A stretch of DNA of 64,000 bases, taken from Owenia fusiformis. Taxonomy: Eukaryota > Annelida > Polychaeta > Sabellida > Oweniidae. The stretch's first letter is position 1, and every line of letters starts with the position of its first letter. The notes below the pieces were generated by a model, which was not told the DNA's origin, ran no database searches, and saw only the letters and a list, made by a program, of their open reading frames with translations. Below, in pieces: positions 1 through 35,434 of the stretch. The translations under genes and the position numbers were made by a program. Where the stretch lies: NCBI GenBank assembly GCA_903813345.2, contig CAIIXF020000007.1, positions 26,027,564 to 26,091,563 on the forward strand, in the 5' to 3' direction.

Positions 1-780
1 AGCCTGGGCCTCGTTTTTTATCTAACATGTCTTATGGCCCCGGCTAGGTCTAACCTCCATGATCATTCTGCCCTTAATGCGTTAATTTAACCGTTCCACA
101 GGTTTCGACGAGCGGAACTAATTAAACTCTGAAAACATGGTAATATTACATAAATAATGTGATTCAAGCATGCATACATACCTAATAAATACATACACAT
201 CATCCCGTATCCCCTTAGACCCTATTGGTGCATAATTACGAAAATATTGGAGACAGGTTTGGTATTTTACGAAAATGTCGGTCAGCTCCGGTAACATCGA
301 AATTGCAAATCGTATCAGGAATTAACCGTCATTGCGACACTGCATCAACGAACAGTAGGTTATGTGTTTTTATATTGTTGTCGAGTATCAGTTGCATGTT
401 ATCGCGGAAAAATGATGGATCCAGAACTTGCATCAAAGGAAAGAATAGTAAGGAGGTTAAACTCATTAATGGCCAAGAAAATTCCTAATAGTAAAGAACG
501 CCGTTATTGAGTTTAACGACTTTGAACTAATTACAATATAGCACCTTAGGGTGCGATAAATAAAACAGTTGAATAACATACTAGAAAACGTATCTACATA
601 TAACACAATGACACGCAATATAAACTAGACATGTAAATTGAACAAGTTCAATTTAAGACTCCAGATTTCAAACTTTTTCTAAGCTGAGTCATCCAGAACT
701 TGTAAGCTGAGTCATCCAGAATAAGCTTAGTCAGCTAGAATATAGACATTTAGACAACTCTTAAGAATGTTATCTTCGAC
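1..780. other. No gene recognised
   Basis: AT-rich non-coding sequence. The only structure seen is a short degenerate duplication of a CTGAGTCATCCAGAA word near 680-730. The short open frame at 225-488 has no recognisable motif. Confidence 0.5.
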
Positions 781-782
781 TC

Positions 783-2445
783 CATTGGCTTAACATGGGG
801 ATATCATCATATCGACTTTTCGAGACTTCAAACTGCAATTACTACCTAACCAGTAGTTGGATTGAAATTTGCTTTAAAGATTCGGATTCCTGAGAAAAAT
901 CTACCCTTAATTCATAACTCATATGTTAAATTGGGAGAACTTTTTATTTTGACCTACATTTCGGACACCATATCTCAAAAGTGGGTCAAAATACTTTCTG
1001 ACGGCAAAAGGCTGACACTATAAGTACACTCTTTGCTACCTGTATACAAAATTTCGGAGCAAATCATTAAAGTGTAATATCAGAATCGCAAAAATAAGGA
1101 AAAACTATGAATTTGACCTAGATTTTGAACTAGGCATTTTGGTGTCCAAATTTTAAAGCTAAATAGCCTTCGAGGTCTCCTTCTTTTATAGGCTTTCAGA
1201 ATGTTAAGCTGTACTCAGTCTATATCTGGTATTTTACACTTCAAAAAAATCTTTTTTCTCATTGACATAACATGGGGTAAAAATTTAGCGATTTTTGAGC
1301 TTTCAAAACGCCATAACTTCCAAAACCGAAAGTCGGATTGAAATTTGATTTGCAGATTCGGATTCCTGAGAAAATTCTACCCTTAATTCATAACTCATAC
1401 GTTAAATTTGGAGAACCTTTCATGTTGACCTACTTTTCCGACACTATATCTCAAAAGTGGGTCAAAATACTTTCTGACGGCAAAAGGCTAACACTGTTAA
1501 CACACTCTTTGCTACCTGTATGCAAAATTTTGAAGCAAATAATTAGAGTGTAGTGTCAGAATCTAAAAAATAAGTTAAAACTATAATTTTGACCTAGATT
1601 TTGACCTAGGTATTTTGGTGTCCAAATTTTGAAGCTAGATAGCTTTAGAGGTCCGTTTCGTTTATAGGCTTTCATTATGTGAAGCTGTACTCAGTCTATA
1701 TCTCGTATTTTACACTTCAAAAAAAATCTTTTTTCCCATTGCCATAACATGGGACACCAAATTTAGCGATTTTTGAGCTTTCAAACCGCCATAACTTCCG
1801 AACCAAATGTCAGATTGAAATTTGGTTTGCAAATTCGGATTCCTGAGAAAATTCTACCCTTTATTCATAACTCAAACGTTAAATTTGGAGAACCTTTTAG
1901 TTTGAAATACTTTTCGGACACCATATCTCAAAAATGGGTCAAAATACTTTCTGACGGCAAAAGGCTAACACTATTAGCACACTCTTTGCTACCTGTCTAC
2001 AAAATTTGGAAGCAAATCATTGAAGTGTAGTGTCAGAATCGCAAAAATAACTTAAAACTATAAATTTGACCTAGATTTTGACCTAGGCATTTTGGTGTCC
2101 AAATTTTCAAGCTAGATAGCTTTTGAGGTCCCTTTCTTTTACAGGCTTTCATTATGTTAAGCTGTATTCAGTCTACTTTTAGTATTTTGCACTTCAAAAA
2201 AATCTTTTTCCCATTGACTTAACATGGGGCACCAAATTTAGCGTTTTTTAGCTTTCAAAATGTCATAACTTCCGACCGGGAAGTCGGATCGAAATTCGGT
2301 TTGCCGATTTGGATTCCTGAGACAATTCTACATCTTTTTCATAGCTCACACATTCAATTTGGAGGATGTTGAGTCGTGACCTACATTTCGGACGCCATAT
2401 CTCAAAATCGGTAAGAGTAATCAAAATTCTGATGTCATACCTTTG
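783..2445. repeat. Tandem array of ~476 bp units, about 3.5 copies
   Basis: Units begin with a CATTGACTTAACATGGGG-like phrase at about 783, 1260, 1737 and 2212, giving periods of 477, 477 and 475 bases. Each unit carries an ATTCGGATTCCTGAGA block and a GACGGCAAAAGGCT block. The 71- and 85-residue open frames at 1338-1553 and 1773-2030 are the same stretch of neighbouring units and differ only by point changes, so they are by-products of the array and not genes. The last unit is truncated and diverged. Confidence 0.85.
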
Positions 2446-2867
2446 ATTCGCCTTTTTCTAAGCTACACGATGAAAAAAAGATGAAGGAGGTACGAAGAAT
2501 ATTGACGAAGATATGATGAAGAATGTTGAAAATGTAAGATTTGACCTAATAACTCGTAGGTTTTTTGTTACATGTACATACCAATATCAAAAGAAGTAAT
2601 ATATTCGAAGTGAAACTTACACGCTCCCTGTACGTTAATAGATTGACTGAAATGTATCTTGTATTGCTTTCAATTTTTACTTCACTGCGCCCACTTTTCT
2701 CTAATATTTGCCTAGATATGTTTTAGTGCCAACAATATTTAACAAACTGCTTGATGAATCTATTATATGTCTGGCAGAACATTGGAAGTAAATGTAAAAT
2801 TTATTTTACGTTCAGAAATATGGAAATAAATCCACGTCTTCCATTTGCAACTTAACCAGGGGCAGTC
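2446..2867. other. No feature seen
   Basis: AT-rich intergenic sequence with no credible open frame or repeat. Confidence 0.4.
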
Positions 2868-3080
2868 TGGGAACCAACAAGGGGGGGCCCAAATTTCAGG
2901 TCAGAGAAAAAAACTTCTGCACATGCGCGGAAAATATTTTGGGCCCCTAAAACCCAAAAGTGGGCCCAAATTTTGAAATTTTGAGGCCCATTTTCTTCAA
3001 AATTTGGCCTTAAGGGTCTTAAGGCCTTTTTTACACGGGGGGGGCAGGGCAGGCCCCAACCCCCAGATCCGCTAATGTTA
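2868..3080. repeat. Dispersed G/C-homopolymer element
   Basis: A stretch beginning with a G run, followed by several copies of a GGCCCAAATTTTGAAA-like phrase, and ending with a long G run and CCCCCAGATCCGC. Related copies with the same GGGCCCAAATTT and GGATCCGCCAGTG phrases lie at about 9920-10060 and 56937-57130. It looks like a short dispersed non-autonomous repeat. Confidence 0.6.
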
Positions 3081-3557
3081 ACTGTACCCTGTTTCCCTTT
3101 TAAACGTGGTCACGTGGTAGCTAGGTAGTGTGATAATAGGTGATTATCCTCTCCGTACACATTTTTATTTCTATTCGGTGTCAAATACAAATACAGTGTA
3201 TGGGTGCTTGTTGGCTTAGTTTTCAAAATATCATGAATTCAAATCACAAGAAGCGTTGACCCAAGCGTTCATGATCATTTGGTTATCAACGCATCCGACC
3301 TTCCCTTTGGTCAAGTCAGAAACCGGCATTAATTATCCTTAAATGTCGCATGTATTGGTTACTATAGTATGTGTACTCTAGACTAGGAAGGAAATGGTAC
3401 CATAGCCTAATTGAAATAAACCATTGCTTGTTATAAACTGATAGCTAGTCTCTACTTTAGAATGTTGTTGAAAACATTACCAATTCGCTATTTGGGTTTT
3501 TTAATTCTATAAAAATGAAATAAAACACAGACATTACATTTATAAACATGTCAAGAT
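3081..3557. other. No feature seen
   Basis: Non-coding, AT-rich; no supported gene or repeat. Confidence 0.4.
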
Positions 3558-4602
3558 TAGTATCACGCCTGGTGATCGTGAAAATGGGACGGAGGGGGAG
3601 CAGGCAATTTCCGCTAGAAAATTCAACAAATCTGGTAAAATTATTTTTTCAAGACAGAGTTTACGATTGAATTGCAAATTGAATAAGCGCACGGTATGAT
3701 AAAATATGTTAGGTATTCTAGGATTTTTTTTCAACCGATACTCTTTTAAGATATAAGATCTATTAAAAAAGGCGCAACGCAACCAACGTGCAAAAGTCAA
3801 AGTTTTTGCTATAAATCAAGCAACAATGGACTACACGACCTGTAATAAATACTTGTAAGTGATGTTATCATAACTAAATTAATGTCATTGCTAAATTTAT
3901 AAAATAAGTTTCCATACGTAAAATAAAAAATAATCGAAAATTATTAGAATGGGGCGGAGGGGGGGAGGGGACGGAGGGGGGGAAGTAATAATTCTATAAA
4001 GTGAAACAACTTCACACGAATTCTTGTATATGTATTTGAAAAATGAACTCATTAACTTAGTAAGAAACTGGATGATATACCCCTGGAGACTGAAAAATGG
4101 GGACATTTGGAGTAAAAGGACTTAAAGTCGCGAAACATCTCTAATCATGTCTTATATACATATTGCTCCCCCCCCCCCTCCGTCCCCTCCCCCCTCCGTC
4201 CCAAATTCATTATTTTCGATTATTTTTTATTTCACATATGGAAACTTATTTTATAAATTCAGCAATGACATTAATTTAGTTATGATAACATCACTTACAA
4301 GTATTTATTACAGGTCGTCCAGACCATTGTTGCTTGATTTATAGCAAAAACGTTGATTTGTGCCTGTTGATGGCCTTGCGCCTTTTTTAATAGATCTCAT
4401 ACCTTAGATGCGTATCGTTTCAGAAAAAATCCCAGAAAACCTAACATATTCTACCATACCGTGCGCCTATTCATTTAGCAATTCAATTGTAAACTTTTTC
4501 TTGAAAAAATAAATCTTCCAGATTTGTTGAATTTCCTAGCAGAAATTGCCTGCTCCCCCCCCCCCTCCGTCCCATATTCACGATCGCCGGGCGTGAGTAT
4601 TA
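3558..4602. repeat. Foldback element, arms ~430 bp
   Basis: Long imperfect inverted repeat. The left arm (about 3558-3990) begins GTATCACGCCTGGTGATCG and the right arm (about 4170-4602) ends with its complement. Shared internal phrases include the complement pair around TTATCATAACTAAATTAATG (left) and CATTAATTTAGTTATGATAA (right). G-rich runs sit on the left at about 3955-3980 and C-rich runs on the right at about 4165-4195, and again near 4553-4570. The small open frames in the arms are fortuitous. Confidence 0.85.
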
Positions 4603-5049
4603 TGAAACTCAAAAATACTAGTAAGCAGAAAGTGATTATCCAAATTTCAAGGGGCAAAATAATATACAACTTAGGATATACTATCTTGTGATATTTTTGC
4701 ATATGACCAACAATTTAGTCGCATTTATAAGCCATAAAAAGAACGAATAAAAAAGAACGGTTTTAATGGCTTTAAAGAAACTTGGGCATTCAATGACTGG
4801 CGATAGCAAGGTGCACATATACACTGTTGCTCATAAATATGGAATATTAGATTTGGCAGCTCAGAATTCAACTTTTGGAGTAAAAGAACATTTATTTGGA
4901 GTCAGTTCAGACATTTATTTTCTAGGCAAATCATAACCACATATTTCATCTACAAATCAACATTTTTTAGAGAAAACATATTTACATTTAAGTTTAGAAA
5001 ATTACTGTTATTCAAACAGGGGTACGCTGAGAATTTTTCATTTTCAAAA

Positions 5050-6275
5050 CACCCCGATCCAAATCAATTCAATTTCAATTCAATTCAATTTATCTATTTC
5101 ATAATTCTTATAAAATATACAATATAAAAACAGACCGCTGGACACCCTAGTGGGTATACGTTGCGGTTTAACAGAAATTTTTAAAATGACATCTAGACTA
5201 CATATAAAAGAAAGCACTTATATTATGTTACATGTAGGTATATAAAATGTTATTAACAATTACTTAAAGGATGTACAATGTAGAAATGTTACAAAAAATC
5301 GGGTACCAGTAAAAAATACAGTATAAAATTGGTATTATACATTACGATAGATGAGTAGTTTTTTATATGAAGGTTTAAAAATATTTAGAGTGGAGCATTT
5401 TTTAATATCATCTGGTAGAGCATTCCAAATATTTGGACCTAGATAGCGAAGGGAAAATTTAGAGCATTTAGGGATATGAAAATAATGCAACTGTCTTGTG
5501 AAATGATGATGGACATTAATGTTGATATCAAACAAGTCTTGAAATAGATTTTTTGGAAGACTGGGGTGTTTATCAAAGATTTTATACATGAACTGACCAG
5601 TACAATATTTGTTAACATCAAAAATATTTAATATTTTAAGATCTTTAAATAGGTGAGTGGAGTGAGAAAGTCTATCCTTATTTAAAGCTAGTCTTAAGAA
5701 TTGTTTCTGCAGTTTATGTAGACAATCATAAAATGATTTAAATGTGTTACCCCAGATTATGTTGCAATAATTTAATTGAGAGTGTATCAATGAGTAGTAA
5801 ATTGTTTTGAAACTGTCTATTTGAAGGAGATGTTTAATGTGATAAAGAGAACCAATAACGCGAGAAATCTTTGTTTCAGCAGATTTTATGTGCTCTTTAA
5901 ATTTCAGGTTTTTATCAATAATAATTCAAAGAAAGTCTATTTTTCCCGGAAATTTATGTTCTCATTGCGTATCTTAAGATTCAGATTTGTTTGATTTCTT
6001 TTGGGTCCAAATAGAATAGCATTGGTGTTGCCAATATTAAGTGAAAGTTTGTTTGTTTTTATCCAGTCATCTATTGAATTCAAGTTTGCATTAGTTCTAG
6101 TCATACGTTCATTTAAATTATAATCACTATCAAGAAGATTGGTGTCATCAGCAAACATAATAAATTTTAGATTAGGGGCAACAATAAGCAGATCATTTAT
6201 GTAAAGAATAAATAATAGCGGTCCAAGTACCGAGCCCTGCGGAACACCACAATTTAGAGATCGTCTAAAAAACAG
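5050..6275 (-). mobile_element. 5'-truncated non-LTR retrotransposon (CR1/L2-like), nested
   Basis: Minus-strand reverse transcriptase fragment with GVPQGSVLGPLLF, YINDL and the catalytic FADDT box (around 6160-6240), then the thumb region and the C-terminal end to 5335. A nonsense codon near 5927 and a one-base frameshift near 5936 split the frame. The 3' tail at about 5050-5095 is a run of TTGAA/AATTG units, like the short-repeat tails of L2/CR1-group elements. The 5' end stops just before the GVPQGS motif, as expected for incomplete reverse transcription. It interrupts the Tc1/mariner element. Confidence 0.88.
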
Positions 6276-6334
6276 AACAAACAAAATAAACATCTGGTTA
6301 TGAAGATTGAAGTGTCCTCTATCCAATGATAGCA

Positions 6335-7334
6335 CTAATATGCGTTATGAACTCTTTGTGCTGCAATCAGAGCATCAACCCTACGGGACCAGCATTGAAT
6401 GAAACATCTGACCTTTCGAAGTGAAATAAGGCCCCATTCCTCAGTCTGGGCAGTGCGTAACGTGTCTAAATTTTCAGGTGGGGTCCAAGTCACGAATCTC
6501 ATTACCAAGGTTGTCCCAAATTTGCTCTGCATTTAGCCTAATTGGCTGACTTTTGTGCCCATGGTAGCTGGTCCACATTGCCTGCCCTGATGTAATCTAA
6601 CACGATGCTACTAGCATATGACACAGCATGACCATTGTGCAGTTGAATGTTGCCCCCCAAGCACCCTGTTTACATGTGGTACTTGATAGAGGTCCAAAAG
6701 GTCAATTTACTTTGAAATTATGTTTGGGAATCACCAAGGGGGTGCAACTTCTGTAGTACTGCTCCAAACAACCTCTGTAATACTGCTTCAAACATAAATA
6801 TGGACGCCTTCATGGACTGCCACATCAGTAAGTGTCCTTATTATTTCTTTCCCCTGGTCTACGACAGAAACGAACACAATTATCAACTTTGTGGAGGACA
6901 CATCTTATTTCCTCACATGCTGTCATATGAGATCAAAGATTAGGTCCAACGTTTTGCTGCTTTCCTGCCCACTGAAGGCACCTTTCTTTGTTATGATCAG
7001 TCAGCTGTGGTCTCATTTCATGGCATTGTATCTGTTCTAAAGTAATCACTGGTTGTCTATAGCTCTGGAACACGGGTTTTTAGGTGAGACAGCCATTAAT
7101 CTCGTAGATTACTGGTTGACATAAAGCGATTTTGATGACATTAATACAGAAGGTGATGGTCTTTTCTTTCTTTTTCTCTTTAGGGCTACAATTGCTGTGA
7201 CTGTGACCTGGAGTCACATTCCAGTGTCTTTGGTACCACTGCAGAATTTTAGAGACTGTTCCTGACATACCCCTAGGATCCTGGCAATGACAGTTTATTT
7301 CATGCCAGAGAGCGCCATCCCTATGACCTGCCAT
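6335..7334 (-). pseudogene. Tc1/mariner transposase, decayed
   Basis: Would cut and join the surrounding element at TA sites. The C-terminal piece (6335-6532) contains the family-typical EEW-aL block followed by a FIQ-SRRVDALI-like block. Upstream, a QLHNGHA stretch stands where Tc1 transposases have a QHDNAR-like catalytic segment, so the second Asp appears lost. The piece at 7080-7334 retains a GHRDGALWHEI and GMSGTVSKIL-like N-terminal region. Multiple frame breaks make it non-functional. The identification is by motif resemblance. Confidence 0.75.
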
Positions 7335-7759
7335 GCTCCTTTTCGCTTATTCTATGGGGCATGTCTTCTAAAAAATCTTCCAACTCTAAATTAGATATTT
7401 ATAAAATGTGCACAATCATTACAACTAAGATTTGGACACCTCTTTCAAGTTACCAATATCATGAGGTCATGGGGTCACCTGAGTGAATACAAGTTTAATC
7501 AACCATAAATGTTTTAACTTTTCATACCAATCAGTATTATATGCCAAACTGATGAGAAAATGAGAACACATTACAAATTTTCATCAAAATACTATCATTC
7601 TGTAGAAATTCCATCGAACATTTATAAATAAAATATTCCATATTTATGAGCAACAGTGTATTTCATATTTTATTTTTAACAGGTGCTCATCAGTCTGGCC
7701 TCGAACATAGTAGCAACGAAACGACAATAAGTTCATTAAACTATAAAACAAATATTTGC

Positions 7760-8338
7760 TCAGTCTTGAATGTAGTTAGTATTCATATGGTTATTCATCT
7801 TCTTGGTTTTTCTACTGTTCATTCGATTATTCCTAATCTTGCCAAAAATCAAATAAATTTCTTGGACAAGAGGGACGATGATAATGAACGCGGCAGCCAC
7901 GAATGCATACGCCATGGAGAATGTTATCCAGTGGTGGAATTCGTTCTTGTTGAAGACTTTAAAAGGAATCATAGCGCAGGGCCAGACGATGACGAATCCA
8001 AAAAATAGACTCAACCCGATAATGATCGCAGTGATCCGAGACCTTCGGAAGCGGGATTTCATTGCTGCGTATGTTGGTCGCACAAACTTTGACGTCAAAT
8101 CATGAACTGTACCGAAGTCACGTGCATATGTAATTGCCCAGGGGTGAAGCGGGTTTTCTATATTCCTCAGCTTGTTCCATTCTTCTTCCTCGTTGAATTT
8201 CTTTCTGTCTAGTGTGCACAATGAAACGACAACGCACACGAATCCACTCAAGCCCAACGAGACGGCACTGCCAACAAGAGTGGGTACATCTTTGCCGGTG
8301 TTCTCCAAAGTCACTCCACCTTCGTAAGTGGACGCAAT
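7760..8338 (-). pseudogene. Copy A last exon, 5'-truncated
   Basis: Encodes the last two or three membrane helices with the conserved block RNIENPLHPWAITYARDF and the end QEIYLIFGKIRNN, then an extra ~18 residues before the stop, because the stop used in copy B is read through. Homology to copy B begins abruptly at ATTGCGTCCA. The 44 bases upstream in copy B (helix start TLSGCLCGLSLWLG) and the splice acceptor are absent. A CATCTAG just upstream would splice out of phase. Confidence 0.85.
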
Positions 8339-8344
8339 AGACTA

Positions 8345-8766
8345 GATGCGAGTAGATATAATATTGATTTACGTCATTATAAATTCAAAATTCAGTCAAA
8401 GTGATGTCATATTTGAAATCTACATGTAAAAGTACATCTAAATATATGTTTTCGAAAATTGTTTATCAACTTTGAAAATTAAATATTTTTTGAAAATGTG
8501 ACTTCTAGTTCGGGTTGATTCCCCATAGACCCCATGTTACAAAGTCACAAAAAGTAAAATATCTTTGATTGTATTAAACAGATAACATTTTCCTTGACTG
8601 GACACATTATAATTTGCATAACTATTAAAATCATAAGGGTTATATGAAAATTAAACCACTAAAACAGATGTAATCTAAGTTAAAGGGAACTTTCTTCTAT
8701 ACCCGCCATGCTATCTGACCCGAGCGAGCCACCTGGTGGTGAAACTGTTAACTACCTACTCGCACA
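8345..8766 (-). repeat. Dispersed repeat, second copy at 37587-37990
   Basis: Read on the minus strand, it shares GTTTCACCACCAGGTGGCT, AGAAAGTTCCCTT, GAAGTCACATTTTC-like and AATGACGTAAATCAA phrases in the same order with 37587-37990. The two copies lie in different introns of copies A and B, so this is a mobile or dispersed repeat and not shared ancestral intron sequence. Its end abuts the truncated last exon of copy A. Confidence 0.75.
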
Positions 8767-8972
8767 AGCGTTATTCCCAACCATAAGGTTATGCCACACA
8801 GACAGCCAGATAGAACACCTGCCAACCACATAAAATTATTCTAACAAATGGATGTGTCTTCAAACATAAGTTTACAATTGGATTCTGTTGTCATCACTGT
8901 ATGGATATTTATCCCTTAACACTAAATTCTACTATCTAAGGTTTTGATATTTTTTTCATAGACAGTGCATAC

Positions 8973-9424
8973 CTGATATCATACCAGCAGCCGTTACCTT
9001 GCTCCAGAGGACGCTGAGAGCCACGGGGATGGAAAGACCACCTAGCAACACTCCATTGAAATAGAAAAGCCATCCTAGGTTCAATCCAACCCAATTTGAG
9101 AACAACACCAGTGGAATCGTGAAAAGCGTAACCCAAAGAATGCACCAATTCTTTAAATTCAGCAGATCATCTTGGTATTGTTGGTACAATCCGTGGACTT
9201 TGCATTTATATGGCTTTCTAACTCCGAGGTTAGATTTCTTTAAAGATCTCATTTCTTTGTCTTCTGCACATCCACTGCATTCAACAACTGGTTTGCAGGA
9301 GCATGGATTGCTTTTATCATTATCTGTAATTGTATCTATAGCAACATTGCGATCCTCGTAGATATCAGTTGGAGGCCTGGAGGATTTACCACAAAGTATA
9401 CACTCACTCTCTTTTAAATTCTTT
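8973..9424 (-). CDS. Copy A exon 6 (Cys-rich loop plus helices)
   Basis: 452 bases, acceptor TTACTTCAG and donor CAGGTATGC, open throughout. Begins KNLKESECILCGK, then CSCKPVVECSGC, then two hydrophobic helices ending WSKVTAAGMISG. Matches exon 6 of copy B in length and phase. Confidence 0.85.
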
Positions 9425-10060: not shown

Positions 10061-10413
10061 ACGAAGACAATTTTTAACAAAACACAAAGGGCGATCTTGA
10101 AAAACTAGAGGGGAAGGGGCACAACAATGTTAGTGTCGATTTCTTGCGCGGAGAAGAAACTGAGCCCAAATTTTGAAAAATATTGCCCAAATTAAAAGCA
10201 ATGCCCAGAAATGCTCGTTTTTGATCTATATTGCTCAGCTTATGTGTGTGAGGAAGAGGAGATTTTCATTTAAGAAAGCAAAAAGGTGGGTCCACAGTTT
10301 AATGAGATATCAGGGGGACGTAATACAGACTGCTTTTGAACGAGGAGACATGGGCTACCCCTGTCCCTCGTGAATCTGTGATTAGTACTTTTGTAACATA
10401 CATAATCCTATGT

Positions 10414-12126
10414 CACGGTGCCCATGTCAAGCTGCGCGACTACTTAGGCGCGCAGTTTGTTTCGATCACAAACTGCGTGCCTAAGAACATTGGATCATTT
10501 AAGTTGGAGTCTGTATTTTGAAACGTTATTTAAAGACATTTATCCTGCATTGTTTTCTTGTTCAATGCGTTCATTCTGTGGCGAATATACGAATCTTGCA
10601 AATACTAGCAAAAACTGTGTGCAAATGAATCTTAGTTCTAAAACATAAGCAGATTAATGGCATTTTCGTCACTGATTTAATGGGAATTTATACGTAAATC
10701 GATCTAGCACTTTAAACATAAATGACAAATACTTTAAACTCGTTTTATATTTAATTCCTTACACATTTATCATGTTTAATTCAAAATATTTCGAAATAAA
10801 ACAGATAATCAGGAGATTAAAAAGAAATAAACCACAAACTGCGCGCCTATTTTAGCCAGAAATTACAATCTGTGCGCATACACTATTAAAACTACATATT
10901 ATCATTGGAATTTCCACAGAGGTACGTGTAGGTGTTTTCGATGTAGCTTTGGAAATTTTCCTTTATCGTCAGATTTTATGAGATTTTCATATTGAAAGTC
11001 AAAATGTATAATAGAAGTGACAATTAAGTTGGGAACGAAAAAAACATTTATTTTCAGATCACCATCTTGGTGGATGGACTCTCATAGTGTTTCAATTATG
11101 GGGTTCTACTATTAGACACATATGTGCCTTGTATGGCGCTTATGTTTTCTAATAATACAAAACAAGCTTGGATAGGCAAGCAGTTTTGAAATATTAGGCA
11201 CGCAGTTTGGGAAATACATAGGATATAGTCCTGAGTAAGGACATTAGCGGTTAGTGATTTGGTTTTCTGAATAAAAAGTCATTTTCTCCTTCCCTACCCC
11301 ATTGGAGCGCCATCTAGCGTTTGGGAAGTTAATCGGGAATAAATATTTATAGGGTAGGTCCTAATTTATCTGAAAACATGTCAGAGTTCAGTGGGAAATC
11401 TCATTTTAAGCTGGCGGCGGAGTGATTTTGACCTTGGTGATTTTACCAGAATTCTCTGAGAAATCTGACGATAGAGGGGGTTAGTGTCTTCAAGTTTATT
11501 TATTTCAAAAATTCGGTGGACAACCCATGGTAAGATTGTTATAGCAGGCTAGGCGAGTCTCTCCCGAACACTGTGGTATGTTGCACTAGGCTTGGATACT
11601 AATCGTTAATAAGTTACAGGGTAAAATGTTATAATGGCCACCTATGGGAAACTCTACTGTGATCTTCAACCATAGTGAATATAGGCGCGCAGTTTGACAA
11701 GAAAAATGTTTAAATCACGTTTATGGTGTATTATCGTTTTGAACACAAACTTTGCTGTTTTAATCAGATGGAGTGATCCTATATATTGTAGCATACACAG
11801 ACACAATGGCTGAATAAACGGCAAATGACGATAAAAAGACATAGATATAACTTTACACTGTAAATTTTGAACACAGAAGTTACTTAAGACCCTTATATTG
11901 AGATAACTAGGTTTACATCGGGAAAAACATTGAGTACTATGAGTAAATTAAGTTCATCTTCACAGAATGGTACTATCTTTAGAACGAGACTAACCTTGTA
12001 TTTTTCGTATTTTGGCTCTTTTTTGGAGTCGTGTCCTCCCCGTCTCACATTTTGAAATATGCGCGCAGTTTGTCAGAGTTTCAAACTGCGTGCCAAGTAG
12101 GCACGCTGCTTGGCATGGGCAATGTG
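10414..12126 (-). mobile_element. Non-autonomous DNA transposon with CAAACTGCGCGCCTA subterminal repeats
   Basis: Terminal inverted repeats of about 45 bases: 10414 starts CACGGTGCCCATGTCAAGC and 12126 ends with the complement of CACATTGCCCATGCCAAGC. The flanks carry a direct repeat TATGT (10409-10413, 12127-12131). Further CGCGCAGTTTG words lie at about 10447, 10465, 10835, 11200, 11690 and 12060. On the minus strand its 5' half aligns with 32866-33430, including a first coding exon destroyed by a stop after the ATG and the start of the second exon, after which the coding region is missing. It is therefore a deletion derivative of the gene-bearing element at 32866. Confidence 0.85.
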
Positions 12127-12336
12127 TATGTATAAAAAAATAATCTATAAAAAATTATAAAAATACTCATTCCTTAATGAATTGAATAAATTTTGTATTT
12201 GGCATATTTTTGATGTCAAGAGAATCATTTTTCGTCAAATGTATATTTCTGAATGTATACTGAATATTTGAACATCTTGGAACACTAAGTTGTGGGTAAC
12301 TTGAGATACAAATACAAGTGCAAAGTCAGAGTTTAC

Positions 12337-32417: not shown

Positions 32418-32427
32418 GGTTCACGTT

Positions 32428-32559
32428 TAAGTTTCACTCAAATTAACATCAATAGCAGAGACATAATTTTTTCAGGTGGTAAGTTTATGAGGATAATTTA
32501 TAATGATTTAATAATTATTTATTTCTCTTAGCTATTGATGTTAATTTAAGTGAAACTTA
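32428..32559. repeat. Small inverted repeat, arms 29 bp
   Basis: TAAGTTTCACTCAAATTAAC pairs with GTTAATTTAAGTGAAACTTA, and the arms continue inward through ATCAATAGC/GCTATTGAT; one mismatch. It begins about 10 bases after the break in the 3' LTR. Confidence 0.75.
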
Positions 32560-32865
32560 AAATTGACCTCAAACGATGTACTTGATTCGCAAAAAAACGT
32601 CATTAGGCAAGGAAAAATAATTTGTTTTTTATATATTATCTCGATTTTTATCCAACATTACAATGTTATTTTCAACCAATTTCCCCGTAATACTTGAACT
32701 GATAAAATGACCGAATTGATTTAGCTTCTAGGAACAGTAAGTGTAGAAACATTAATTCACGAGGCAGTTTTGAACAAAAGCCTGTAACATTGAACTATAC
32801 GCATTAATATTTCGAGGTCAAAATAAAAAAGAGCCTACACTGATATCCCTCCACAAGACTAGTCT

Positions 32866-34470
32866 CACGGAGCGGTAGGCAAACTGCGCGCCTATTATGC
32901 ACGCAGTTTGGAACACTGACAAACTGCGCGCCTATTCACAAAATGGCAGACAAGGAGGACACGACTCCCAAGAGGATGGAAATTACTGGAAATACAAGGT
33001 TAGTTTTGGTTTTCAGACAGTACCAAGATGTGGAGACTAACTTACTTTAAATGTAGCACTCGATTATTTTCCCGATGCATATCTAGTTATCTCAAAATAA
33101 GGTTCCCCAAGAGCTTTCGTGTTCAAATTATACAGTGTTGCGTCATATAATGTCTGTTTTTCGTAGTTTGACGTTTATTCAGCCCTTGCGTTTGCATATA
33201 CTGAAAGATATAGGATTGCTGCACATGGTTTAAGTAATATAGTTTGTGTGTTAAACAGTGACAAGCCATTAACGTGATTTTTTTTCGCTGTCAAACTGCG
33301 TGCATACTTTCACGTGGATTTCACAAACTGCGTGCCTAATATTTACAAACTGCGCGCCTATATTTACAAACTGCGCGCCTAATTTGCAAACTGTGTGCAA
33401 GTTTGTTGTACACATTTTCAGAAAACGTAAACGCCACTCACTAAACCTGTCCCTATATAAAAAGAAACCAAAGTCTGACCCCATCAAAGATGTAGATAAC
33501 AACAGCGCATCTTCAAAAACCATGACACCCCCTTCAGAATTAAACAAGATGAAGAAAAGGAAACCAATCAAGAAACCAAAGAGGCGATTATTTAAAGGTA
33601 CCAGTGACTCATTTGAAAAAACATTAAAAGACTGTGAAAACCTCTTGCCTGATGTCCTCTCAAACCTTAACAATGAAAATGACAATTATAGTCCAGAAAC
33701 AATGAAATTTTGGAAGGTTTGCTGTAGACAATTCCATGGGAAGTTTCTACGATTCATGACAGGTGACAGGGAGTCCCACCACATAAATTTTGCCGTTCCG
33801 ACTGAAAAAAACATCAGAAACTTTAATGGCCTTGATCTTATAATCCCTAGAGAACTGAAGCCAGGAATAATCAAGGAAGCGTTTCCAATGCTGGAGAATG
33901 ATAAAAAGTATGTCATTAGCGTTGATGGGAAAAAGACTGCATCAGGACGTACAAAAAAGGGTGGGGACATTGATTTGTTTGGTCACGAACCAAATGGCGA
34001 CTCTCTCGCGAAAAAAGGATTCAATACATATTTACACAATTCAATTTGTTGCACCATGCATCAAATAGTGTTAGTTTGAAATAAAGTAGTAAAATAGGCA
34101 AGTTCGGCACTTCAATGGAGACTAGACAGGGGCCACCTGGGTGTCTTTTAGTAGGACCCCAATAGAACAAAACCATTTTCATGAGATTTTTGAACTCAAC
34201 TCTATATGATGAAGTCGAATCATTGCATCATACTTTTACAAAAGCATATAGACAAGAACAAAAATAAAATATGAATATGTACATTTCCACTGGTTGTCAA
34301 CTATCAACCCAATTTTAGTTTTTGATTTATTTCAACCTTTTCAATCTCTACCTTTTCAACTTACTTACGTACTCCCATGAAATCACATAGGCCTGCATTA
34401 CTGAGAAGTCATCAATAATATGCACGCAGTTTGGAAGAGTATGCACGCAGTTTGTGATTTCTGGTAATAT
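32866..34470 (+). mobile_element. Unclassified DNA transposon with CAAACTGCGCGCCTA arrays, gene-bearing
   Basis: The left end CACGGAGCGGTAGG...CAAACTGCGCGCCTA matches the ends of 10414-12126. About ten copies of the word (either strand, variants TGCGTGC, TGCACGC) lie at 32880-32930, 33295-33410 and 34422-34462, including five inside the intron of its gene. The 3' terminus corresponding to 10414-10830 is not present, so this copy is truncated. The encoded gene is given separately. Confidence 0.8.
32943..34079 (+). CDS. Two-exon transposon protein, candidate transposase N-terminal part
   Basis: Exon 1 32943-32998 (MADKEDTTPKRMEITGNT), donor AAGGTTAGT. Exon 2 33422-34079, acceptor TTTTCAG. They join in phase to 237 residues. 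After a Lys/Arg-rich start (KRKRH, MKKRKPIKKPKRR), likely nuclear-targeting or DNA-binding, comes FWKVCCRQFHGKFLRFMTGD, then a strand-like YVISVDGKKTASG with GGDIDLFGHE. The VDGKK Asp could be the first acidic residue of an RNase H-fold transposase; this is inference. The frame ends soon after, so the protein is probably truncated. The family was not recognised. The related copy at 10414-12126 shows the same exon 1, intron and exon 2 start, which supports the gene structure. Confidence 0.65.
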
Positions 34471-35434
34471 AAGCACTGACTCATTTTGAAGCTTATTGGA
34501 TTTTGTAGGTAATCGTCTTCATTTTGTCTTGGCCAAATATCATTGACTGAAATATATTATAGTTACAACTATCTTAATTATCCAAAGATGAAGGATAACA
34601 CATATGTATTCATTGTACTTTTTGGAAGTTTCTCCCAAAATGAAAATGCCGAACTAAATAGAACAAGGTAAAAAAGTATTATTATATTTTTTTCTTATAA
34701 CTAGCCAAAAACTCGGAAAAACTGAATCTGATTGAAGAAATTAATTAAGCCAAGCTTATTCAGAAAAAAAATATATATATCCGAAGCCAATAGCAGATAG
34801 AAAGAAAGATTTCTGCCATTGTAAATGAAATAAGCTACTTACCAACATATTTCTGCGACTTTTGTTATTCACATCTTATCTCTGCTGAAAAATCGTGCGG
34901 GATGTCGCGGGACATTCAAGGGATTTACGTGATTGGGACTTAATGTAAAAGTACTCAAATCAAACTTTCAGATACTGATTTATCAAATACGAGAATGCAC
35001 TGACATAAATAATCACAATCTCACACAATATGCATAGAAATATTATTAAATATAATTATTATTTTGATACCAAATAACGGCAAACTAGGTACTTGAGAAG
35101 CCAACTATTGTGTTATTTGGATCAAAATCACAGTTTTTTAAATGGACTATATGCTCTTTCCAAAAGCAGATCTGATGCACTGGGAGTTTGGCAGCACTTT
35201 TCAAATTAGATAAACTTTACTCCTCAAAAGTGCAAAAAAAACTTAGCTTCTGATCTTATATCACGAGATAATCACAACTATTTAGCCTAGGGGATTGCAA
35301 CAATTTTGGAAATTCGCGGAGGTCAGGCCGACATTCGCGGGACTTCGCGAGACATCGCGGGACACGCGAATTAGCCAAATTTTGATCAAATTCGCGGGAT
35401 AATCCCGCCATTCGCGGGACACTTGACAGACAAC
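34471..35434. repeat. AT-rich stretch ending in TTCGCGGGA-word array
   Basis: 34471-34880 has no feature. 34890-34930 and 35315-35425 are built from TCGCGGGACA-like words (at least eight), ending CGGGACACTTGACAG. Confidence 0.55.

Follow-up and report, generated by a model that had tools for sequence, protein, structure and literature searches.

The stretch of Owenia fusiformis DNA analysed here (64,000 nucleotides; hereafter the window) contains members of two related DNA-transposon families, A and B, which are marked by a common 15-base word, CAAACTGCGCGCCTA. Both copies probably represent a non-autonomous, cut-and-paste group of transposons with CAC(GG) ends and a set array of word copies, whose lost autonomous element encoded a P-related DDE core with an inserted YqaJ nuclease. 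The gene in the window is an internally deleted remnant that ends shortly behind the first aspartate block of the transposase; the architecture that we propose for the complete protein is deduced from eight longer relatives elsewhere in the genome.

Families A and B and the layout of their ends

In the 498-Mb genome, the word CAAACTGCGCGCCTA has 881 exact occurrences (431 on the plus strand and 450 on the minus strand), while the reversed pattern used as a control is found nowhere. Within the window, 17 places match the word with up to two mismatches, where 0.03 would be expected; nine of them are located at 32880-34454 and the remaining eight at 10428-12096. The initial annotation had recognized a transposon family with its own two-exon gene at the first of these locations, and this assignment is borne out by the number of words, and by the ends and their 5-bp target site duplications (TSDs). 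The features of the window are as follows.

10414-12126, no strand assigned: family B element, complete at both ends, between copies of the TSD TATGT at 10409-10413 and 12127-12131
32866-34474, plus strand: copy of the family A element whose left end is intact and starts with CACGGAGCGGTAGG and whose right end is truncated (placed by the ends and TSDs of 17 other copies and by the end of the alignment)
32866-32935, plus strand: inverted repeat at the left terminus, some 70 bp long; its identity with the opposite end in ten other copies is 87-92%
32880-32894 (plus), 32896-32910 (minus) and 32920-32934 (plus): outer word array, with the layout 15+, 31-, 55+ from the end
32943-32998, plus strand: coding exon 1, ATG at 32943, GT donor after 32998 (from splice signals and reading frame)
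32999-33421, plus strand: intron, GT...AG, the AG acceptor ending at 33421
33292-33381, plus strand: inner word array of the left end, inside the intron, with words starting at 33292, 33324, 33346 and 33367, all in plus orientation
33422-34079, plus strand: coding exon 2, internally deleted, stop codon at 34077-34079
34080-34085, plus strand: AATAAA, directly 3' of the stop codon
34419-34454, minus strand: remaining part of the right-end inner word array, with words at 34419 and 34440, both in minus orientation

The left end of the family A copy at 32866 agrees with the bounds proposed at the outset, but position 34470, then taken as the right bound, is no terminus: alignments with other copies extend no further than 34474, and the window copy lacks the outer right end, a part of about 0.4 kb where the element is whole. 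Comparison of flanks between copies placed the termini at CACGG; for the group as a whole, the ends begin with CAC(GG). Perfect 5-bp TSDs surround all 17 family A copies tested (nine whole loci and eight pairs of short end stretches) and both of the B copies with two ends, including the one in the window; this count for family B leaves out nine other loci, for which the fetched stretches were too narrow to hold both ends. Inverted ends of about 45 bases had been reported initially; inverted ends are indeed present, but they are imperfect, begin with CACGG and extend further, with an identity of 87-92% over 70-73 bp in family A. In the longer alignments, the ends of A and those of B share 70-78% identity. 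Genome-wide, at least 71 A-type ends and at least 204 B-type ends were found as exact matches, both numbers being lower bounds because no mismatch was allowed, and the reversed control gave none for either type. Twenty-six pairs of A-type ends face each other at a spacing of 1.8-3.6 kb, as counted by hand from the list of exact ends.

Two observations on neighbouring structures are recorded here in their own right. At C9:13044664-13044749, two facing A-type ends stand only 86 bp apart, and they possibly delimit a minimal element. An imperfect inverted repeat to the left of the family A element of the window (agtttcactcaaattaacatcaatagc ... gctattgatgttaatttaagtgaaact; recognized by eye, at about 32425-32560) resembles another small foldback repeat.

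The words occupy set places relative to the termini. On the gene side of the family A consensus they are found 15(+), 31(-) and 55(+) bp from the end and then at 431, 463, 485 and 506 bp, and on the gene-free side at 15, 31 and 55 and then at 422, 453 and 474 bp; the first three fall within the inverted repeat proper. Family B has distances of 15, 31, 55 and 431 bp at one end (one copy) versus 15, 32, 56, 422 and 453 bp at the other. In one A copy (L012), the gene-side inner array is shifted inward by about 330 bp because of an insertion. The inequality of the two ends is small (431 versus 422) and common to A and B; unequal spacing at the two ends is also described for P elements (PMC7776569). 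When the two ends of family A are compared, identity is 85% within the words (89 of 105 positions) and 45% in the remainder (193 of 431), with corresponding values of 84% and 44% in family B; this high word identity arises partly by construction, since the words were picked by their likeness to one motif, and the matching of word distances at both ends is the stronger point. Between the families, identity on the gene-free side amounts to 85% in words versus 67% outside them, and on the gene side to 64% in words versus 69% outside, where the inner words of A have no partner in the one B copy compared.

Set places, together with an end inequality shared by both families, are the pattern expected of transposase-binding sites, and the words are most likely such sites. 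Within 70 bp of the end they comprise an inverted pair and one further site, and a second cluster follows farther in. The idea, voiced at the outset, that the arrays bind the element's own transposase is thus in keeping with where the words stand, which is where such sites would be placed and at like distances from both ends. The special link between array and intron that had been read into their position does not hold up. According to that proposal, the intronic array couples transposase binding to the expression of the transposase's own gene; the gene-side inner array does fall in the intron, and a protein bound there could affect transcription or splicing. However, the intronic array is simply the inner array of the left end, it has a mirrored counterpart at the gene-free end in all nine A copies with both ends examined, and family B likewise possesses inner words at both ends. 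Since the array recurs where there is no gene, and in family B as well, its purpose does not lie in the intron. We consider such a coupling quite improbable as its role, while a side effect of the intronic array on expression may exist.

The truncated gene of the window and its longer relatives

The two-exon structure of the gene was recovered as initially described, with start codon, splice donor and acceptor, stop codon and AATAAA all in place, and its product has 237 amino acids. Exon 2 encodes the N-terminal part of the transposase to just past the first aspartate block (VISVDGKK...GGDIDLFGHE), followed by a short tail and the stop codon. The homology of the window protein to its relatives stops after GDIDLFGHE, the remaining gene being deleted, and relative to the loci L004 and L007 the window copy lacks an additional stretch of exon 2 (break at query positions 1070-1078). 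Many copies related to the window gene carry stops in its region, and the window copy is the one open copy. Several weaker matches to the window gene were noticed, for example at C2:1317141, C8:28688987 and C356:12892.

One might ask whether this single frame has remained open because its 237-aa product is a working repressor akin to the KP protein. Both exons are open, the stop codon and the AATAAA are present, the N-terminal part is kept, and small P elements can encode repressors, for instance the 207-aa KP protein (PMC7776569). As a guess, the truncated product could compete for the words through its N-terminal part. Nevertheless, only one copy is open while many related ones have stops in the region, and a functional repressor hence appears to us to be a very doubtful interpretation.

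An autonomous copy of the window family was not found in the genome; the autonomous partner may be lost, may lie in an assembly gap, or may have been missed. Three longer A copies (L035-L037; 3.0-3.6 kb) have N-terminal coding matches only, and the A copies contain no convincing C-terminal coding remnants at E <= 0.5. The recovery of a full-length protein, suggested as a check in the initial annotation, has succeeded for relatives but not for the window's own family. By searching the genome with the window gene plus one relative of it, eight related loci with longer frames were reached (L001, L002, L003, L005, L006, L024, L025, L026), among them frames of 1438 (L001), 1467 (L002) and 1221 amino acids (L024). 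Genome searches gave 11 matches to the nuclease/D2 part and 10 to the C-terminal one; all of them fall in these eight loci, and no copy of the window family with nuclease or D2 was detected. The nearest relative of the N-terminal part of the window gene is L003, with 62% identity over 76 amino acids.

The relatives share a characteristic order of blocks. On the N-terminal side, a block with YS..T..FW and F.GKF.RFM.G precedes the motif VDGKK..G..GDIDL.G.E (D1); about 200 amino acids, helical in a low-confidence model, then lead to the YqaJ nuclease, which is followed by a block with DGQ[WF] at its end (D2), a linker that varies, and the motifs DFHHLL.N.R and SE.FFG near the C-terminus. The order D1-YqaJ-D2 is present in seven of the eight relatives, L025 being without D1 in the stretch examined, which leaves its 5' part outside. 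In L001, L002 and L024 the three parts are contained in one frame, and in the others they are spread over exons. L003 is without the DFHHLL part, and the C-terminal part of L005 is located at C7:16369086-16369766.

The inserted domain matches the YqaJ profile PF09588 at E <= 1 in four of six members (best value 1.4e-9; above the cut-off in L001 and L002), and a lambda-exonuclease model matches all three long relatives scanned, each time below the cut-off. The PD-(D/E)XK nuclease residues E65, D107, E130, K132 and Q154 are invariant in all six members. By profile match and residues, the inserted domain of the relatives belongs with the nucleases of the YqaJ/lambda-exonuclease type. Furthermore, D2 (DGQ) is invariant in seven of seven, and the C-terminal E is found in all six members holding that region. 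L002 and L025 are 58-66% identical in their nuclease, D2 and C-terminal parts, with dN values of 0.27-0.36 and saturated synonymous sites, a sign that selection has acted on these parts.

Neither family ends nor a word with fewer than three mismatches were found in the examined stretches of the eight relatives, and a search for terminal inverted repeats and TSDs in the flanks examined gave best scores that were inside or close to the range of shuffled flanks. Given this lack of ends above chance level, the relatives may be host genes or old relics. Among 154 and 165 candidate stretches from viral and genome contig sets, respectively, no relative was confirmed. Two features of individual loci deserve mention. 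The N-terminus of L001 (1273-1420) has weak zinc-finger matches, to SUZ12-like and C2H2 models and under the cut-off, and may possibly belong to a host gene; frames resembling a tyrosine recombinase and an RNase H adjoin the L003 gene (174-2192, minus strand), and these possibly represent a DIRS-like retroelement.

Full-length relatives that are single loci without detectable ends, and the fact that a window-family copy with the rest of the gene was not found, would also fit the capture of a host-gene fragment by an unrelated transposon, in which case the gene would be uninformative on the transposase that mobilises the elements. Such a capture is hardly likely in our view, because the captured gene would need to be transposase-like by chance, and because the gene predates the split of the two families. 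The gene-side end of family B matches exon 1 of family A through the splice donor (11973-12059, minus strand; score 81, compared with 31 or less in 300 shuffles), and such a match, despite an end identity of only 70-78%, means that the gene was already present in the common ancestor of A and B.

Probable relation to the P-element transposases

The initial annotation was unable to place the protein in a known transposase superfamily. We can place it, distantly and with moderate confidence, by comparing an insert-free profile, that is, the protein of the relatives with the YqaJ nuclease left out, with P-element-type transposases of the same genome, in which the P-type domains PF21787 and PF21788 are present at 13 and 11 places, respectively. 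Against the profile of seven P-type proteins, the insert-free family profile aligns over 406 columns with a probability of 88 and a score of 56.3, whereas 60 column shuffles reach at most 22.1, the reversed profile reaches 17.9, and four control profiles (YqaJ frames, hAT, and two other parts of L073/L074) score between 13.8 and 18.3. The alignment brings MRYSP, D1, HLL.N.R and the C-terminal E.FF into the same register, and sets DFHHLLTNxR on the P-type motif PHLLKTxRN. These data argue for a core that is distantly P-related.

The strength of this signal is uneven along the protein and among its members. By segment, it is carried by the C-terminal part (44.7 versus 22.6 or less in shuffles); the D1 segment alone scores 20.8 versus 17.0 or less, over 14 columns only, and the D2 segment alone scores 14.1, a value reached by 11 of 60 shuffles. 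When members are dropped, the probability ranges from 5 to 92 and the score from 30.6 to 62.0, still above the controls; the probability falls to 5 without L073 and L074, to 7 without L024 and to 15 without L032, and the weaker of these alignments cover roughly the C-terminal half only. As single P-type sequences, L073 (31.4) and L074 (23.8) are clearly above the best of 24 controls (21.1), L032 (21.4) equals it, and four of the seven remain below it. PF21787 matches one of seven D2 segments (L005; 2.9e-4, under the cut-off). The idea that removal of the nuclease extends the PF21787 match to D1 failed, with a match in one of four composites that still covered profile positions 65-128. Three conserved acidic residues had been named at the outset as a property to look for; D1, D2 and the C-terminal E are conserved among the relatives, but the D2 of the family is not aligned with the D2 of the P-type proteins in the full profile alignment.

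Several hallmarks of the P superfamily were not found. The GTP-binding insertion domain PF21788 has no match at E <= 10 in the three C-terminal parts scanned. A THAP domain was detected neither in the window product (E <= 10) nor in seven N-terminal parts nor in L001 and L002, the first exons of most relatives lying outside the stretches scanned. A TSD of 7-8 bp is characteristic of the superfamily, and 5 bp are duplicated in all 19 copies tested. On account of its TSD, and because THAP and GTP-binding domains were not found, we refer to the system as P-related and not as a P element.

These discrepancies invite a different reading, namely a DDE transposase of a superfamily that is not specially related to P, with a P-like score that reflects general RNase H-type patterns and with the YqaJ nuclease as a feature of its own. 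The weak scores of single sequences, the restriction of PF21787 to one of seven segments, the out-of-register D2, the sensitivity of the profile probability to dropped members, the 5-bp TSD and the poor structural models are all consistent with it. It has to be set against a profile alignment that stands far above shuffles and control profiles, including a small hAT set, and against the register of MRYSP, D1, HLL.N.R and E.FF that is common with the P-type proteins; we judge it to be rather unlikely. No Pfam match to a Harbinger-type DDE domain or to the hAT C-terminal dimerisation domain PF05699 was obtained in the frames scanned, and the hAT control profile (four frames) accounts for the score of 18.3 mentioned above. 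Transib, which is characterized by a 5-bp TSD, was considered on this account, and no Pfam match pointed to it. KDZ, Academ, Kolobok and others were covered by whole-Pfam scans only.

Structure predictions added little. AlphaFold models of L024 (1199 aa, 14 rows) and of L002 from D2 to the end (780 aa, 13 rows) reached a mean pLDDT of 52.8 and 54.6, respectively, and Foldseek comparison of both with the PDB gave no match at E <= 0.001; both models are too poor and were not used as evidence. A sequence search of the PDB with four profiles yielded a designed PPR protein as the best match (E 4.6e-4), whose repeats contribute about 1-5 bits each and which is not believable.

Proposed mechanism and comparison with known systems

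We suggest that the lost autonomous element would have encoded a large protein like those of the relatives, with a basic, helical DNA-binding part at its N-terminus and an RNase H-type DDE core distantly related to that of P, into which a YqaJ nuclease (lambda-exonuclease-like PD-(D/E)XK) would be placed between D1 and D2. The residues D1, D2 and E presumably form one RNase H-type active site, and, to judge from the relatives, the window family's own full-length protein presumably had the nuclease as well. Multimers of the transposase would occupy both the outer triplet and the inner cluster and pair the ends; in what is most likely an ordinary DDE cut-and-paste reaction, the ends would be cut and then joined 5 bp apart in the target. 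Since the catalytic residues of the nuclease are kept and apparently under selection in the relatives, it probably acts on DNA during transposition. It could cut the strand that the DDE core leaves, by analogy with TnsA beside TnsB (PMC8188705), or it could resect or trim the donor break and thereby favour repair by copying. A two-nuclease eukaryotic transposase, in which the P-related DDE core shares strand cutting, or cutting and resection, with a nuclease of the lambda-exonuclease type, is on present evidence an unlikely version of this scheme.

YqaJ nucleases accompany animal transposons, and the position of the nuclease between D1 and D2, the presumed catalytic aspartates of the transposase, makes its role testable in a single protein in which the active-site residues of both enzymes are conserved. 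The system would extend the P-related transposases to a 5-bp TSD, and it would offer a clear example of unequal ends that are recognized through several sites at fixed spacing. What had been rated initially as the best candidate for an undescribed system becomes a P-related variant: no description of YqaJ and a P-type transposase in one chain was found in the open literature searched, and as subscription papers and Repbase reports lay outside the search, a prior description is possible.

P elements (including THAP9 and Pdre2) are the closest point of reference, as the insert-free profile aligns with P-type transposases. They, too, have transposase sites inside their ends, at unequal spacing, and internally deleted copies, of which small ones can encode repressors (PMC7776569). 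In contrast to the 5 bp of families A and B, P elements duplicate 8 bp (PMC7776569, PMC10983969). Further differences are the window product without a THAP domain, the GTP-binding domain that was not found, and the YqaJ nuclease that the window-gene relatives have between their two aspartates.

Galileo has a TSD of 7 bp. It resembles families A and B in having multiple sites per end, comparable to their outer and inner arrays: several THAP-binding sites are described, at about 70 bp, 561-577 bp and 701-718 bp from the end (PMC3688188). The inverted repeat of A and B, however, comprises only about 70 bp, and farther in their ends share the words but not the DNA between them.

ISL2EU of the PHIS/Harbinger group likewise combines a DDE transposase with a YqaJ nuclease (PMC4482050, PMC9179366). 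There, YqaJ is a second open reading frame, whereas in seven of the eight window-gene relatives it is part of the transposase chain itself and separates D1 from D2. The functions of the additional open reading frames of PHIS elements, ISL2EU included, are given as unknown by the authors (PMC4482050). In the open literature consulted, YqaJ appears as this separate open reading frame or is named in passing.

Within the same genome, L073 (C331:9000-18500, 1-6915) and L074 (C3:16785500-16794500, 2077-9000, minus strand) resemble the relatives in combining a P-type transposase and YqaJ in one chain. Their frames exceed 2300 amino acids and comprise a P-type transposase, zinc knuckles, a C-terminal YqaJ and a long unplaced C-terminal part; in L073, PF21787 and PF09588 are over the cut-off and PF21788 is just under it, and in L074, PF21788 and PF09588 are on one frame. 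They differ from the window-gene relatives in that YqaJ follows the whole transposase and the zinc knuckles, instead of interrupting the presumed catalytic core, and the two architectures were not joined with support in a YqaJ tree (0.104). A third frame of the L073/L074 kind was seen at C486:31968-34076. In total, 40 YqaJ places were counted in the genome; several are equal in score and frame length (217, 223, 241, 376, 511 and 588 aa), and these repeated places probably represent other mobile elements.

In Tn7, TnsB is a DDE enzyme and TnsA has a restriction-type PD-(D/E)XK fold; where the two are fused, TnsA is attached at one side and is not known to be set within the DDE domain. Like the protein of the relatives, the Tn7 TnsA-TnsB pair and its natural TnsAB fusions join a transposase with a second nuclease, sometimes in one chain (PMC8188705). 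Tn7 is bacterial, and it serves here as a working analogy to the relatives' protein and not as a claim of kinship. Should the two-nuclease transposase prove true, it would be an animal counterpart of TnsA-TnsB that came about through the insertion of a nuclease into an RNase H core.
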